Assembly (NCBI RefSeq): GCF_001190925.1
Contig: NZ_CP011072.1
Span: 2,170,001-2,234,000 of the forward strand
Reading direction: 5' to 3'
DNA length: 64,000 nucleotides
Origin: Azoarcus sp. CIB
GTDB lineage: Bacteria; Pseudomonadota; Gammaproteobacteria; Burkholderiales; Rhodocyclaceae
Made by a program: the position numbers and the translations under genes. Position 1 is the first letter of the stretch; every line of letters starts with the position of its first letter. Below are positions 41,064 through 46,029 of the stretch, piece by piece. The notes beneath the pieces were generated by a model, which did no database searches, was not told the origin of the DNA, and was given only the letters and a program-made list of their open reading frames with translations.

Positions 41064-41537
41064 TCATGGGTTCGTCTGCAGACCGAGGGACGACCGCACC
41101 GTCGCCTCCGTGACAACGCCCGACAAGGCGGTCTTGCCGCCCTTCCCGTCGAAAAAGATCGTTCTCGGCAGCTCGCCGCGCCACTTCGGATCGAGCGCGT
41201 ACCCGAGGGCTTCGGGGGATTCCGGCCCGTAGGCGAAGCGCTGCCCGGGCACGGCAAGCAGGTCCAGCGGTTCGGCCAATCCGGCAGACTGCGGCTCCAC
41301 GGCCACCGTGACCAGCCTGAACCTGGGGTCGGTCTTGGCCATCTCGGCAAAGAGCTTGAGGTTCTTCTTGCAGTGGACACATTCCGAGGACCACAGGGCG
41401 ACGATCGTCGGCACCGCGTGGCTCGACGGAGTGACGATCCGGGCGGCGGCGGACCGGTCCAGGGCCTGGAATTCAGTCGCGCCGCAGGCAGCGGCAACGC
41501 ACCAGGACAAGCTCGCAACGATGCGTCGGATCTTCAT
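41064..41537 (-). CDS. exported thioredoxin-fold protein (CVHC active site)
   Basis: 157-residue protein with an N-terminal signal peptide (about residues 1-20) and a TlpA/thioredoxin-like fold. Seen: WSSECVHCKKNLKLFAEM with CVHC at about 53-56, the cis-proline region ELPRTIFFDGKG, and GVVTEATVRSSL. It probably reduces disulfides or cysteines of periplasmic copper-handling partners (inference). Last gene of the copper-linked operon. Its ATG overlaps the propeller gene stop by four bases (ATGA). Confidence 0.83.
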   Translation of the reverse strand: MKIRRIVASLSWCVAAACGATEFQALDRSAAARIVTPSSHAVPTIVALWSSECVHCKKNLKLFAEMAKTDPRFRLVTVAVEPQSAGLAEPLDLLAVPGQRFAYGPESPEALGYALDPKWRGELPRTIFFDGKGGKTALSGVVTEATVRSSLGLQTNP

Positions 41538-42751
41538 TCCAGCCGGTACCCCTGCATGCCTTCGTTCTCCGTCCGCCAGAATGCGAACAGCGCGTCGCCG
41601 CGACGGATCACGCGCGGCTGGTCCGATGCGCCACCGGTGGCCGCTAGTGCCCGCGCACTGAAGGTCGCGCCGCCGTCTGCCGATACCTCGGCCTGCAGGC
41701 GCGTGCGCTCACCGTCGAATTCCTTCCAGACAATGGCGACGTGCCGCCCCGCGGTCGCGATGTCCGCATGCGCCGCCCGCTCGCCGCCCAACGCGCGCTG
41801 CCCGTCCACCCGACCGTCTTTCAAGCGCCCGTAGAAGACACGCCCTTCGCCATCCTTCTCGTTGAACCACACTGCGTGACGCGTGCCGTCAGGCGCGACG
41901 GCGAGCGAGGGGCCGTGGTGCGGGCAGGCGTCGATGCGCCAGCGGTCGAAGGTGGCGCGCGCAACCTGTCCGGGCGCCCCTTCCGCGCTCAGCTTGACCA
42001 CCGCATGGTCGCGCTCGTTGGGTTCGAAGACATGGCGCCACATCAGCAGCGGGAGCCCATCCGTATCCCCGATGATCCCGATGCGACAGCATTCGCAGGA
42101 ATGGTCGGCGATCTTCTGCTCGGTGCGAAAACTGCGCCCACCGTCCTCCGAGATGGCCGCGTAGATTGCCGCGCCGCGGTAATCGCGATTCGCCGCCTGC
42201 GCGAGTTCGAGGTCGCGCTTGTCGATCCACGCCAGCACGACCTTGCCGGCGCCGGTCACGGCGAGCGACTCGAAGCGATGGGTGATCTCCTGGCGGTCGC
42301 GATGCACCGTGACGGGCGCCGTGAAGTGGCGCCGGTCATCGGCACGTGCGAAGCGGATCTCGCCGGTGAAGCGCTTCGCCAAGGGCCGGGTCCATGACAC
42401 CAGTGCCGCACCGTCGGCATCGAAGGCAAGCTTGGGTCGATTTTCGCCGTCGGCCGCGATCTGCTCCGGTTCCGCATTGACGACGACGGGCGCCTCCCAG
42501 TTGCGCCCATCGTCCGCACTGCGATGAAGGAGCACATGCTGGCCGTCCTTCGTCACGGCGTACAGCGCGCCGTCGGGTGCGAAGGCCGTGCTTGTTCCCA
42601 ACTCCGGTCGCGCCGGCTTGGCGCCGGCCGTTCCGTGCATGTGCCGAGCCGGCTGAACTTCGGCCGCGCCGGCGTTCGCGATCACGAACGCCCCCAGCAC
42701 AGCCATCATCGCCCGTCGCGTTGCGCTCAAGGGCATGGCAGCGCTCACCAT
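41534..42751 (-). CDS. exported BNR/sialidase-like beta-propeller with a CECC motif
   Basis: 405-residue exported protein. A signal region at residues 1-31 includes a weak twin-arginine pattern (ATRRAMM). The rest is a six-bladed sialidase-like propeller with Asp-box type blades (SADDGRNWEAP, SEDGGRSFRTE, SADGGATFSAR). Unusual metal-type residues are present: HMHG just after the signal, DHSCECCRIG near 215, and ACPHHGPS near 270. No sialidase catalytic arginine triad was identified, so copper or metal binding seems likelier than glycosidase activity (inference). The ATG at 42751 overlaps the receptor stop; ATG 42736 is an alternative. It is coupled to the thioredoxin gene. Confidence 0.8.
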   Translation of the reverse strand: MVSAAMPLSATRRAMMAVLGAFVIANAGAAEVQPARHMHGTAGAKPARPELGTSTAFAPDGALYAVTKDGQHVLLHRSADDGRNWEAPVVVNAEPEQIAADGENRPKLAFDADGAALVSWTRPLAKRFTGEIRFARADDRRHFTAPVTVHRDRQEITHRFESLAVTGAGKVVLAWIDKRDLELAQAANRDYRGAAIYAAISEDGGRSFRTEQKIADHSCECCRIGIIGDTDGLPLLMWRHVFEPNERDHAVVKLSAEGAPGQVARATFDRWRIDACPHHGPSLAVAPDGTRHAVWFNEKDGEGRVFYGRLKDGRVDGQRALGGERAAHADIATAGRHVAIVWKEFDGERTRLQAEVSADGGATFSARALAATGGASDQPRVIRRGDALFAFWRTENEGMQGYRLE

Positions 42752-44850
42752 TTCGCCTCCACACCTGCGATCACCGTACGCGGCAATCCCGGCGAATAGA
42801 CCGGGGTGCTCCGAGTCGACAGCTGCGCGCTTTCGGCGTAGCGCTTGTCGGTCAGATTCTGGACGCTGCCGAATAGCGACCAGGTCGGGTTGAGCGCGTA
42901 ATTCCCGCGCAGGTTGAAGAGGTTGTGGCCACCGTATTTCACCGTGTTCGCGTCGTCGAGCCAGTAGGATCCGATCCTCGACCACTCGAGCTGCGCCCGG
43001 ATCGCGGCCGTCGGCGTCCAAGTTAAGCGGGTGTTGGACATGAAGCGCGGCGCGCTGGCCTGCTCGTTGCCACCGAAATCGTCTCTTTCCGTTTCCCAAT
43101 TTTCAAATTCATGCCATGCATAAGACATCGCGACATCGAGCCTGACGGCGCGATGCAGCGGCACACCGAGCCCGAGTTCGACACCACGGTGACGCGTCTT
43201 GCCGGCATTGGTCGTGATCGTCTGCGTCGTTTCCGGATCACGCTGGCTCACGATGTCGTCGCGCTTCGTCAGGTCATAGGCGACCAGATCGTAGGACACG
43301 CCGGCAACCACGCCACGAATACCAAGCTCGAACTGTTCGGCGCGGATAGCCTCCAGTTCGACCGCGGACTGCGCGAGCGCCAGCGCCGATGCACGGCTCG
43401 TCGCCCTCGACGGACGGAAGAGCTGCGACTCCGACGGCGCGCGGAACCCCTGGTTGTATGAGGCGAACAGGTGGGTATCGCGATCGAGCGCATACGTCGC
43501 TCCGAACTTCGGCGTCACGCGACGGAAACTCACCGTGCTGTCAGCCGCTTGGCCGTAAAAGCTGGTTCCCGCCTGGACGGCCCCCGCGGCGAAGTCGTTG
43601 CGGAAGGCGTAGCGCATGTCGTCGTAACGCAGTCCTACGGTCAGGCGCAGCCTGTCGGTGGGCGAAATCTCGCCGTGCAGGTAGGGCGAGATGCCGCGAT
43701 ATTCGACGTCGTAATCGTAGATGCGCGGCCCCACGGTGTAGTCGATGAATTCCTGGCTCGCACCGCTTCCGCGCGTCGTCGCATTGATCCGGTTCTCGCG
43801 CCGCGATCCGGGGCTCATGTCGAGATCGACGCCCGCGATCAGGCGCGCACGCATGGGCGCGAAATCCTGGCGCCACTTCGCCATCAGGCCGTAGGACTGG
43901 TTCCGCGTCTCGGCAAGACTCGGGTCGAAGCGCAGCGCGAAGCTCGCCAGCAGGTCCATGCTGTTGTCGCGCACGTAGGGCGTGATCGACAGCAGCGAAT
44001 CCGCGGTCTCGTGCTCGAAACTGCTCGACAGGCGCAGCGCGCTGACCTTGCGGAAGGCGATCGGCAGGTAGTTGCGCTTCGGGTCGTGCCTGTAGTCCTC
44101 GCGCACGAGGGGTGAATTGGCGCCCGTGTCCTGATCGATCTCGGAGAAGCCGAGGACGGTCTTCAGCGAAGTGCTGTCGCCGATGAAGTGGTCCCAGCGC
44201 AGCGTGCCGCTCTTGCGGTCGTAGGCGGTATCGTCGCGCCATCCGTCGGTCGCGGAGAGATTCAGGTCGGCGCGAAAACCGCCGTTTGCGTAACCCGAGC
44301 CGCCACTCAGCAGCGCGCGCCGCCAGCCGTGTTCGCCGATCTCGACGGAGCCCCCGAGCTCGGTCTTCGGCGGGGGCACGCGCGTCAGCACGTTAACGAC
44401 GCCACCGATGGCATCCGAACCGTACAACGCCGAGGACGGGCCGCGGTTCACCTCGATGCCGCCCGCCTGCGGCACGTTGATCTCGTACAGCGCGTTGTGA
44501 TTGAAGAAGCCCGGCGAACGGGACGGAATGCCGTCTTCGAGGAACAGGTACACCGGGCTCGTCGTGAAGGGCTGACGAATCGAGGTCGTGTGCCCCTCGC
44601 CGTTGGTCACCGCGACCGCAGCGCCCGGAATCTGGTTCATGACCTGGGCTGGATGGGCCGGCTTGTCTGCCGCAAGTGCCTCCGCCTTCACCGCTCCGAC
44701 CGAAGCCGGCGTCTCGACCAGCCGTTCCTTTTCGCGCGTGCCGGTGACGGTCACCTGTTCGAGGATGGTTTCGGCCTCGGCCGCCGAAGCCCCGCCGATC
44801 GCGCAAGCGCAGGACAGCGCGACGAGGGCGCGGATTCGTTCAGCGCCCAT
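42745..44850 (-). CDS. TonB-dependent outer membrane receptor, probably for copper
   Basis: 701-residue TonB-dependent receptor. Seen: a signal peptide (residues 1-24, ASA site), the TonB-box-like TILEQVTVTGTREKE, a plug domain (MNQIPGAAV, IRQPFTTSPVYLFLEDGIP, EVNRGPSSALYGSDAIGGVVNVLTR), a long beta-barrel of about 22 strands, and NLFNLRGNYALNPTW with NLTDKRYAE near the end. The start at 44850 overlaps the PCu(A)C gene by 11 bp. The DUF2946 and PCu(A)C neighbours point to copper rather than iron as substrate (inference). Confidence 0.88.
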   Translation of the reverse strand: MGAERIRALVALSCACAIGGASAAEAETILEQVTVTGTREKERLVETPASVGAVKAEALAADKPAHPAQVMNQIPGAAVAVTNGEGHTTSIRQPFTTSPVYLFLEDGIPSRSPGFFNHNALYEINVPQAGGIEVNRGPSSALYGSDAIGGVVNVLTRVPPPKTELGGSVEIGEHGWRRALLSGGSGYANGGFRADLNLSATDGWRDDTAYDRKSGTLRWDHFIGDSTSLKTVLGFSEIDQDTGANSPLVREDYRHDPKRNYLPIAFRKVSALRLSSSFEHETADSLLSITPYVRDNSMDLLASFALRFDPSLAETRNQSYGLMAKWRQDFAPMRARLIAGVDLDMSPGSRRENRINATTRGSGASQEFIDYTVGPRIYDYDVEYRGISPYLHGEISPTDRLRLTVGLRYDDMRYAFRNDFAAGAVQAGTSFYGQAADSTVSFRRVTPKFGATYALDRDTHLFASYNQGFRAPSESQLFRPSRATSRASALALAQSAVELEAIRAEQFELGIRGVVAGVSYDLVAYDLTKRDDIVSQRDPETTQTITTNAGKTRHRGVELGLGVPLHRAVRLDVAMSYAWHEFENWETERDDFGGNEQASAPRFMSNTRLTWTPTAAIRAQLEWSRIGSYWLDDANTVKYGGHNLFNLRGNYALNPTWSLFGSVQNLTDKRYAESAQLSTRSTPVYSPGLPRTVIAGVEAKW

Positions 44851-45295
44851 GGCCGGCGCCTCCGATCGTGCCGAGCGGCCGCACCGCAGCCTTGACCTCG
44901 AGCGTCTCGCGCTTGCCGTCACGCCCTTCCACCGTCAGGGTCAGCGGCACGGTATCGCCGGGCTGCAGCGGCTGGCGCAGATCCAGCAGCATCACGTGAT
45001 GCGCCCCGGGCTTGAGTTCAACGGTCTGGCCGGCGGGAAGCGTCACCCCTGCGACAGGGCGCATCTTCATGACGTCCTTCTCCATCGCCATTTCATGGAT
45101 CTCGACGGTACCGGCGACCGGCGAGCCCGCCGCGACCAGCTTCGCATCTTGCGATGCAGTGAGCCGCATGAAGGCTCCGGTAACCTTCTGGTGCGGCACG
45201 GTCGCGCGCACCCACGGTTCCTCGACTTTGATGTCTGCCTGCGCGGGCAGCGAGAAGGCGATCACGGACAGGGCTGCTGCAATGTAATGCTTCAT
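44840..45295 (-). CDS. PCu(A)C periplasmic copper chaperone
   Basis: 151-residue exported protein: signal peptide at residues 1-20 (Ala-Gln-Ala site), then a cupredoxin-like PCu(A)C domain. Copper ligands follow the HxnM pattern: EIHEMAMEKDVMKMR and then HHVMLLDL. Such proteins bind Cu(I) in the periplasm and deliver it to oxidases or transporters. The start has AGGAG at ideal spacing, but that site (45300-45307) is exactly complementary to the end of the DUF2946 gene, which suggests it is masked unless the leader is translated. Confidence 0.92.
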   Translation of the reverse strand: MKHYIAAALSVIAFSLPAQADIKVEEPWVRATVPHQKVTGAFMRLTASQDAKLVAAGSPVAGTVEIHEMAMEKDVMKMRPVAGVTLPAGQTVELKPGAHHVMLLDLRQPLQPGDTVPLTLTVEGRDGKRETLEVKAAVRPLGTIGGAGHGR

Positions 45296-45299
45296 GTTT

Positions 45300-45507
45300 C
45301 CACTCCTGCATGGCTGGCGATCCGCCCGGCAACCGCGCGACAAACCGGCGCAGGCACGGACGAATGGGAATACGGCGAAGAACCCGGTATCGGGGTCGAA
45401 GCGCCGCAAACGTAGCTGATGAAGACCGGGATTCCGCCCCGTGGACGCCGCGCCTGTCCTCTACCGGTCAGGCGGATCGGGGCGACGGACGTTCAGGCGA
45501 GGAGTGG
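45300..45507 (-). promoter_or_regulatory. putative translational switch: leader end complementary to the PCu(A)C ribosome site
   Basis: On the mRNA (minus strand) CCACTCCT, in the last codons of the DUF2946 gene (45507-45500), is an exact reverse complement of AGGAGTGG (45307-45300), the Shine-Dalgarno region of the PCu(A)C gene. The arms are 192 bases apart. Pairing would hide the ribosome site. A ribosome stalled on the RAPP codons would cover the first arm and free it. Confidence 0.5.
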
Positions 45508-45888
45508 CGGTGCGCGCGGAGGCGACTTGATCCACGCAAACAGCGGGCGCGGGGAATGGAAGTACAGCCGGGGGAATTTGTCGCTGCCGACTTCCAGCGC
45601 AAAGGGCACCACGTACGGCGCCGGCAACGCCGGTGCCCCGCCATGCGTCGCGCAAAAGGCGCAGCGTTCCGCAGGAAAAAGGTCGGAATTGTCGCCCTTG
45701 CTGTCGCCGGTGGAATCGTCGACCGCGACCAGTTTGGTGCCGGCGACGGTACAGACCTCGACCCAGCGCGTTTCGGCGCCGGCGAGCCGCGACAGCGCAT
45801 GGCTCATTGCCGGCATGACGGCACCGAGCAGGATCGCGAACAACGCGATCCATGCCGTCAGGGTGCGGGTCGAGCGCTTGAGATGCAT
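45493..45888 (-). CDS. DUF2946 copper-responsive leader protein
   Basis: 131-residue DUF2946 protein with an N-terminal hydrophobic segment (residues 8-28, signal-like), a CAFC motif with nearby His in ERCAFCATHGG near residues 88-98, and a C-terminus KSPPRAPPLLA. DUF2946 proteins CutF of Rhodobacter and CruR of Bordetella are reported as copper-sensing upstream frames that act through their translation, using a cysteine motif and, in CutF, a proline-rich end. The RAPP motif here is of the kind found in ribosome arrest peptides. It lies 197 bp upstream of the PCu(A)C gene. An in-frame extension to 45990 is unlikely; the ribosome site is weak. Confidence 0.8.
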   Translation of the reverse strand: MHLKRSTRTLTAWIALFAILLGAVMPAMSHALSRLAGAETRWVEVCTVAGTKLVAVDDSTGDSKGDNSDLFPAERCAFCATHGGAPALPAPYVVPFALEVGSDKFPRLYFHSPRPLFAWIKSPPRAPPLLA

Positions 45889-46029
45889 GGGCGGATGGAG
45901 GCCTCGGGTCGCTGGCATTCTAGCGACGAGGCTCCCGTTTCCCTTGACTGCAGTCAAGCGGAGGAAAAAGTCGGCTGCCAACTGCTTCACGCTTCGGCAG
46001 CCCTTGGGTCGGACCTTTCGTCGGGCCGA

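Follow-up and report, generated by a model that had tools for sequence, protein, structure and literature searches.

Complementarity between the tail of a predicted copper-sensing arrest leader and the downstream Shine–Dalgarno sequence in Azoarcus sp. CIB

A DUF2946 leader and its operon

We analysed a 64-kb stretch of the genome of Azoarcus sp. CIB, a relative of Aromatoleum, which we refer to as the window. On its minus strand lies an operon whose first gene is a leader open reading frame (ORF) of 131 amino acids (45493–45888) that resembles CruR and CutF. Checked against the sequence, this ORF runs from an ATG at 45888 to a TGA at 45493, and it matches the DUF2946 profile PF11162 with an E value of 1.8e-21 and 77.5 bits (gathering cut-off, 23.7). 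The leader lies downstream of purL, and a terminator-like hairpin after the end of purL (45983–45969) is the probable purL terminator. Behind a gap of 197 nt (45296–45492) follows the gene for a PCu(A)C periplasmic copper chaperone (44840–45295; PF04314, E=1.1e-38), which is preceded by the sequence GCAGGAGTGGAAACATG. Its end is overlapped by the start of a gene for a TonB-dependent receptor (42745–44850; PF00593, E=1.8e-46, and PF07715). The nearest solved chains to this receptor were those of PqqU/YncD (E=1.2e-19), and the match to CrtA of Bordetella pertussis (9rvq; 6.5e-19) was limited to two partial stretches. We considered the receptor as a full-length relative of CrtA and rejected this assignment, given that partial match and the slightly better one of PqqU/YncD over the full length.

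The operon seems to continue past the receptor into a BNR/sialidase-like exported protein encoded in the same direction (41534–42760, start approximate; weak Pfam BNR matches) and a small exported ORF that overlaps the preceding stop codon (41064–41537). The BNR-like protein contains a CECC motif. The small ORF was recognized from its reading frame and a CVHC motif; it had no NCBIfam match and is probably thioredoxin-like. Both proteins are possibly metal- or thiol-related. No known RNA family was recognized; the one match, to Magnesium-II, scored below threshold and lay on the opposite strand.

An earlier note made from the letters of this DNA had read the leader as a DUF2946 frame with a CAFC motif and the C terminus RAPPLLA. 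This description was confirmed by the PF11162 match and by the spacing of the two motifs, which are 49 residues apart, as is fixed in the family (49 or 50 residues in 161 of 196 members). CAFC (Cys76 and Cys79; 45652–45663), with ATH directly after it, represents the CxxC copper-binding motif of the family, and both of its cysteines were invariant in 12 aligned relatives. A third cysteine, in the context E[VLI]C, was likewise invariant in these leaders; here it is Cys46 (EVC; codon at 45751–45753), which may be a copper ligand. The RAPP arrest motif (45505–45516) was also invariant in the 12 relatives and is followed by three residues, LLA, and the stop codon. By the toeprint of CruR (PMC12992588), its first proline (Pro1; codon at 45510–45508) would occupy the P site and its second (Pro2; 45507–45505) the A site. 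A hydrophobic stretch, RTLTAWIALFAILLGAVMPAMSHA, is visible at the N terminus. The leader shares 83–94% identity with loci of A. tolulyticum, A. evansii, A. toluclasticum and others, and all 17 genomes of the genus that we examined contained a DUF2946 match. Judged by its sequence, the leader is a copper uORF of the CruR/CutF type, a known kind of protein, for which copper sensing and arrest are predicted.

Upstream of the leader we found an FNR/Anr-type box, TTGAC-TGCA-GTCAA (45943–45958, minus strand), which is the sole match to TTGAYNNNNRTCAA in the window (0.06 expected). The box was present in 13 of 13 loci checked in the genus, two of which carry TTGACTGCAATCAA. A −10-like hexamer, TAGAAT (45917–45922), recognized from sequence and conservation, lies 28 nt after the centre of the box, a spacing that suggests a class II activator position at about −40.5. 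A scan for sigma-70 consensus promoters found none, and that it missed TAGAAT is as expected for an activator-type promoter. The box is a probable transcriptional input, and the operon may be turned on when oxygen is low, with copper trimming its expression; control by both would make sense for a chaperone whose clients are respiratory copper enzymes.

Two complementary arms

The codons from the second RAPP proline onward had been proposed to be exactly complementary to the Shine–Dalgarno sequence (SD) of the next gene, 192 nt away, and we found this to be correct. The anti-SD arm, CCACTCCT (45507–45500), comprises the Pro2 codon CCA, the Leu codon CTC and the first two bases of the second Leu codon CTC, and is the exact reverse complement of AGGAGTGG (45307–45300), which consists of the PCu(A)C SD and three bases. 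The intergenic gap forms the loop between the arms. CCACTCCT occurs three times on both strands of the 64-kb window (1.25 expected), and two of these occurrences are the arms. For the peptide PPLLA encoded with local codon usage, the probability of this exact 8-mer is P=0.0074, owing to the rarity of CCA, which makes up only 3% of Pro codons in the genes of the window. When we instead counted, for this single locus, all synonymous versions with a duplex energy at least as good, the result was not significant (P=0.17). The synonymous-codon argument is therefore modest in a single locus, and we placed the weight on comparative data.

Eight loci form the clade of the window. All eight use CCA for Pro2, and the Pro1 codon varies among them; GGAGTGGAAACATG is identical across the clade and AGGAGTGG is present in every member. 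The arms are almost invariant, with one C-to-U change that gives a G–U pair, so this clade offers conservation rather than compensation. A consensus fold of the eight members paired the tail with the SD at probabilities of 0.98–1.0. Folds of single sequences varied with the amount of 5′ sequence included: for locus L001 the pairing probability was ~0.95 but dropped to 0.06 with one choice of upstream sequence, and it was low again with the longest, and for L006 and L009 it was near zero with more upstream sequence. Single-sequence folding was too context-dependent to serve as proof of the helix, and we discarded it for this purpose.

The leading edge of a ribosome lies about 15 nt downstream. 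Masking the footprint of the stalled ribosome in silico increased SD accessibility across the family more than control masks did (p=0.0014); the mean effect was small (0.32 to 0.41, with controls at 0.35), and in the sequence context used L001 showed none.

Conservation and covariation across the family

We gathered DUF2946 loci from the genus, the family and the order, and retained leaders that end in R[AG]PP and at most 9 further residues and have a CxxC upstream. The first downstream gene was identified by mutual similarity among loci. Start codons were picked by codon type, SD strength and a signal-like N terminus, and never by complementarity to the leader. We then computed RNA duplex energies between a window of the leader and the SD region (−19 to −3) for the true pairs and for pairs permuted between loci, using 94 representative DUF2946 loci with less than 62% protein identity. 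For the leader window from +0 to +24 relative to Pro1, the energy was −10.81 kcal/mol in true pairs and −8.39 kcal/mol in permuted pairs (z=−10.6; 0 of 2,000 permutations). Windows further upstream in the leader gave z values of +0.4 to −3.4, and those from +12 onward gave −1.4 to +1.2. A 9-nt scan placed the peak of the signal at starts of +5 to +9, which correspond to the post-RAPP codons through the stop. Counted from the first proline of RAPP, the effect was confined to +5 to +18 nt, the stretch that an arrested ribosome would occupy. Perfect tail–SD helices of 7 bp or more were present in 18% of the true pairs, compared with 3% after permutation, and the 21-nt tail matched the SD region perfectly over 8 bp or more in 13.8% and 1.2%, respectively. 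The pairing often takes in the stop codon of the leader.

The signal persisted when partners were permuted within the class of downstream gene (z=−8.5) or within GC quintiles (z=−8.6), which rules out an artefact of either kind. It was also retained when the window's genus was left out (z=−9.3) and after dereplication at 42% identity (z=−7.2), and was present both in PCu(A)C-first loci alone (p=0.0044) and in TonB-first loci (z=−7.3). An independent set of 12 representatives from two other genera, fetched once the hypothesis was fixed and analysed with the preset window, gave p=0.0012, with one of six control windows at p=0.01, so that this set is imperfectly clean. Ordinary adjacent gene pairs (n=122, from 40 stretches of 20 kb in 11 genomes, the window's own and ten relatives) showed no effect (z=+0.4), and on this ground we rejected a general tendency to complementarity around stop codons. 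Among the family representatives, about half showed no unusual pairing of tail and SD. On these sequence comparisons, the predicted anti-SD pairing holds up as a conserved feature of the DUF2946 leader family.

The earlier note had made its proposal depend on the two arms being conserved or covarying in relatives, and both were observed. We aligned 19 sequences that share one register, 9 of which come from one genus, so that counts in this alignment are not independent events. In this alignment 89.5% of cells were paired, compared with 28–45% for slid partners, and all variable pairs had changes on both sides (6 of 6). The covariation score was 0.383 against 0.156 in shuffled alignments (0 of 500 shuffles). 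Within one genus (L250–L264) a U–A pair is replaced by C–G, with the U–G intermediate present. The compensatory changes come from these relatives and not from the clade of the window. A sister clade (L013–L017) has a different tail, and its pairing is moderate and non-specific.

A proposed copper switch and its alternatives

CruR (BP2923) of B. pertussis is the DUF2946 uORF of cruR-bfrG/crtA-bp2921. There, relief of arrest by copper triggers Rho-dependent termination (PMC9426467), and toeprinting showed that the ribosome arrests with the two prolines of RAPP in its P and A sites (PMC12992588). The leader described here shares with CruR the DUF2946 domain, a CxxC ~49 residues before a C-terminal RAPP, three residues after RAPP, a long gap and downstream genes of the copper-uptake type. 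The readout proposed for CruR is Rho-dependent termination, however, and the term Shine–Dalgarno is absent from the text of that paper (PMC9426467). CutF of Rhodobacter capsulatus (cutFOG) is also a DUF2946 protein, and there the SD of the next gene is masked by an anti-SD stem-loop that is opened by translation of the leader (PMC9973294, PMC8456105). In that system, by contrast, copper activates, the motif is CxxxC, the proline-rich end is different, the gap is 40 bp and the stem-loop is described as intergenic. CutF was presented as one case, and its authors note that other CutF-like proteins may work differently (PMC9973294, PMC8456105). We rejected assignment of the leader to the CutF type proper, as it combines CxxC, a 197-nt gap and PCu(A)C, whereas CutF combines CxxxC, a short gap and a multicopper oxidase.

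Beyond DUF2946, the arrested ribosome disrupts an SD-sequestering stem-loop in SecM, VemP, MifM and the Alteromonas uDF leader (PMC10987492), but these are unrelated proteins that sense protein export or insertion and not metal. For the RAPP-type leaders ApdA and ApdP an SD-masking hairpin was looked for and not found (PMC7897499). RAPP/RGPP uORFs before PCu(A)C, TonB and YcnI genes, which are of the same leader and downstream class, have been listed by motif enrichment (PMC12992588); that survey did not settle whether, or by what means, arrest acts on the genes downstream, reports no anti-SD and does not contain the term Shine–Dalgarno. The order of PCu(A)C followed by TonB, which the earlier note had thought might be a new arrangement, has already been reported behind DUF2946/RAPP uORFs (PMC9426467, PMC12992588, PMC12914433), and PCu(A)C was the first gene in 29 of the 94 representatives. 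Our search of the main texts of freely accessible journal articles turned up no description of an anti-SD located family-wide in the codons after RAPP. The protein family and the gene arrangement are known, and the question put to the test here was that of the anti-SD.

We favour, with a probability of about 0.72, a CruR-type copper-sensing arrest leader that uses unmasking of the SD as its readout. The post-RAPP codons would be dual-coded, finishing the leader and serving as the anti-SD for the next gene. At low copper, the ribosome would arrest on the RAPP prolines, with CCG in the P site and CCA in the A site, and its footprint would extend to about +15 nt of the mRNA; it would thereby occupy CCACTCCT and leave the PCu(A)C SD open, and the genes for copper acquisition and assembly (PCu(A)C and the TonB receptor) would be translated. 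Binding of copper to the nascent CxxC, perhaps with Cys46, would relieve the arrest, and the ribosome would terminate and leave. The tail could then pair with the SD 192 nt downstream and translation would fall, after which Rho may end the untranslated transcript. Arrest, copper dependence and polarity in Azoarcus sp. CIB are what we infer from the published relatives, and the polarity (low copper, on) would follow from the CruR precedent and the nature of the downstream genes.

A covarying anti-SD within the arrest footprint would be a specific answer to how RAPP arrest regulates the downstream gene, and would account for the small number and the variability of the residues that follow RAPP. 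It would also link two DUF2946 mechanisms that are thought to differ, those of CruR and CutF, and predict, genome by genome, whether a given leader acts on translation or on Rho. It is reasonably likely that, across DUF2946 leaders, the variable codons from RAPP to the stop form a dual-coded anti-SD that the arrested ribosome would cover. Metal-sensing arrest peptides would then have a general readout by SD unmasking, which would unify CruR-like sensing with the CutF stem-loop, with a separate Rho readout in lineages that lack an SD.

The leader could instead work solely as demonstrated for cruR-bfrG of B. pertussis, where the gap is a similar 162 nt (PMC9426467): RAPP arrest would shield a rut site, release by copper would lead to Rho termination in the 197-nt gap, and the complementarity would be secondary. 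The gap at the window locus is indeed long and GC-rich, but a pure Rho readout leaves a position-specific, covarying anti-SD unexplained, and we regard this alternative as unlikely. Two Achromobacter cruR-crtA loci (L275 and L276; transporter 81–82% identical to B. pertussis CrtA) stood in for B. pertussis in our comparison. They had no SD-like sequence before crtA and no specific helix between tail and SD; both features are present in the window and in many other lineages. These SD-less loci fit the Rho mode of CruR, which suggests two readouts in one family, and SD masking and Rho termination probably coexist among DUF2946 leaders.

Identical helix anatomy, including the frequent involvement of the leader stop codon, would also serve plain translational coupling, in which the helix ties PCu(A)C translation to any ribosome that finishes the leader, with no regulated arrest. 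We consider this improbable: the helix lies exactly behind a known arrest motif that did not vary among the 12 aligned relatives and that stands a fixed 49–50 residues from the metal site, RAPP mutants of CruR abolish downstream expression (PMC9426467), and the ordinary gene pairs lack the feature. A reversed polarity, with copper promoting arrest and turning the operon on, has a precedent in R. capsulatus CutF, whose SD-masking stem-loop acts in this way on a multicopper oxidase (PMC9973294). It is very improbable here, as the downstream copper chaperone and TonB receptor form an acquisition and assembly set and the motif is RAPP as in CruR, where copper relieves arrest. That the 8-bp match arose by chance from Leu-Leu codons and a G-rich SD would agree with the energy-based value of P=0.17 but is scarcely credible against a rare CCA fixed in eight of eight clade members and the family-wide matched-pair statistics.

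Leaders of other forms were also encountered. The genome of the window contains a second DUF2946 gene, L002 (G000:C1:209977-210288), which together with L018 and L020–L023 is a different leader subtype: here RAPP is followed by a conserved extension of ~14 residues (ending ATAPGIG), and an exported protein of 321 amino acids is encoded 81 nt downstream. In DUF2946 leaders of one genus (L211–L217, L219–L221, L224 and L233), HPLDPP replaces RAPP near the C terminus and is possibly a variant arrest motif.
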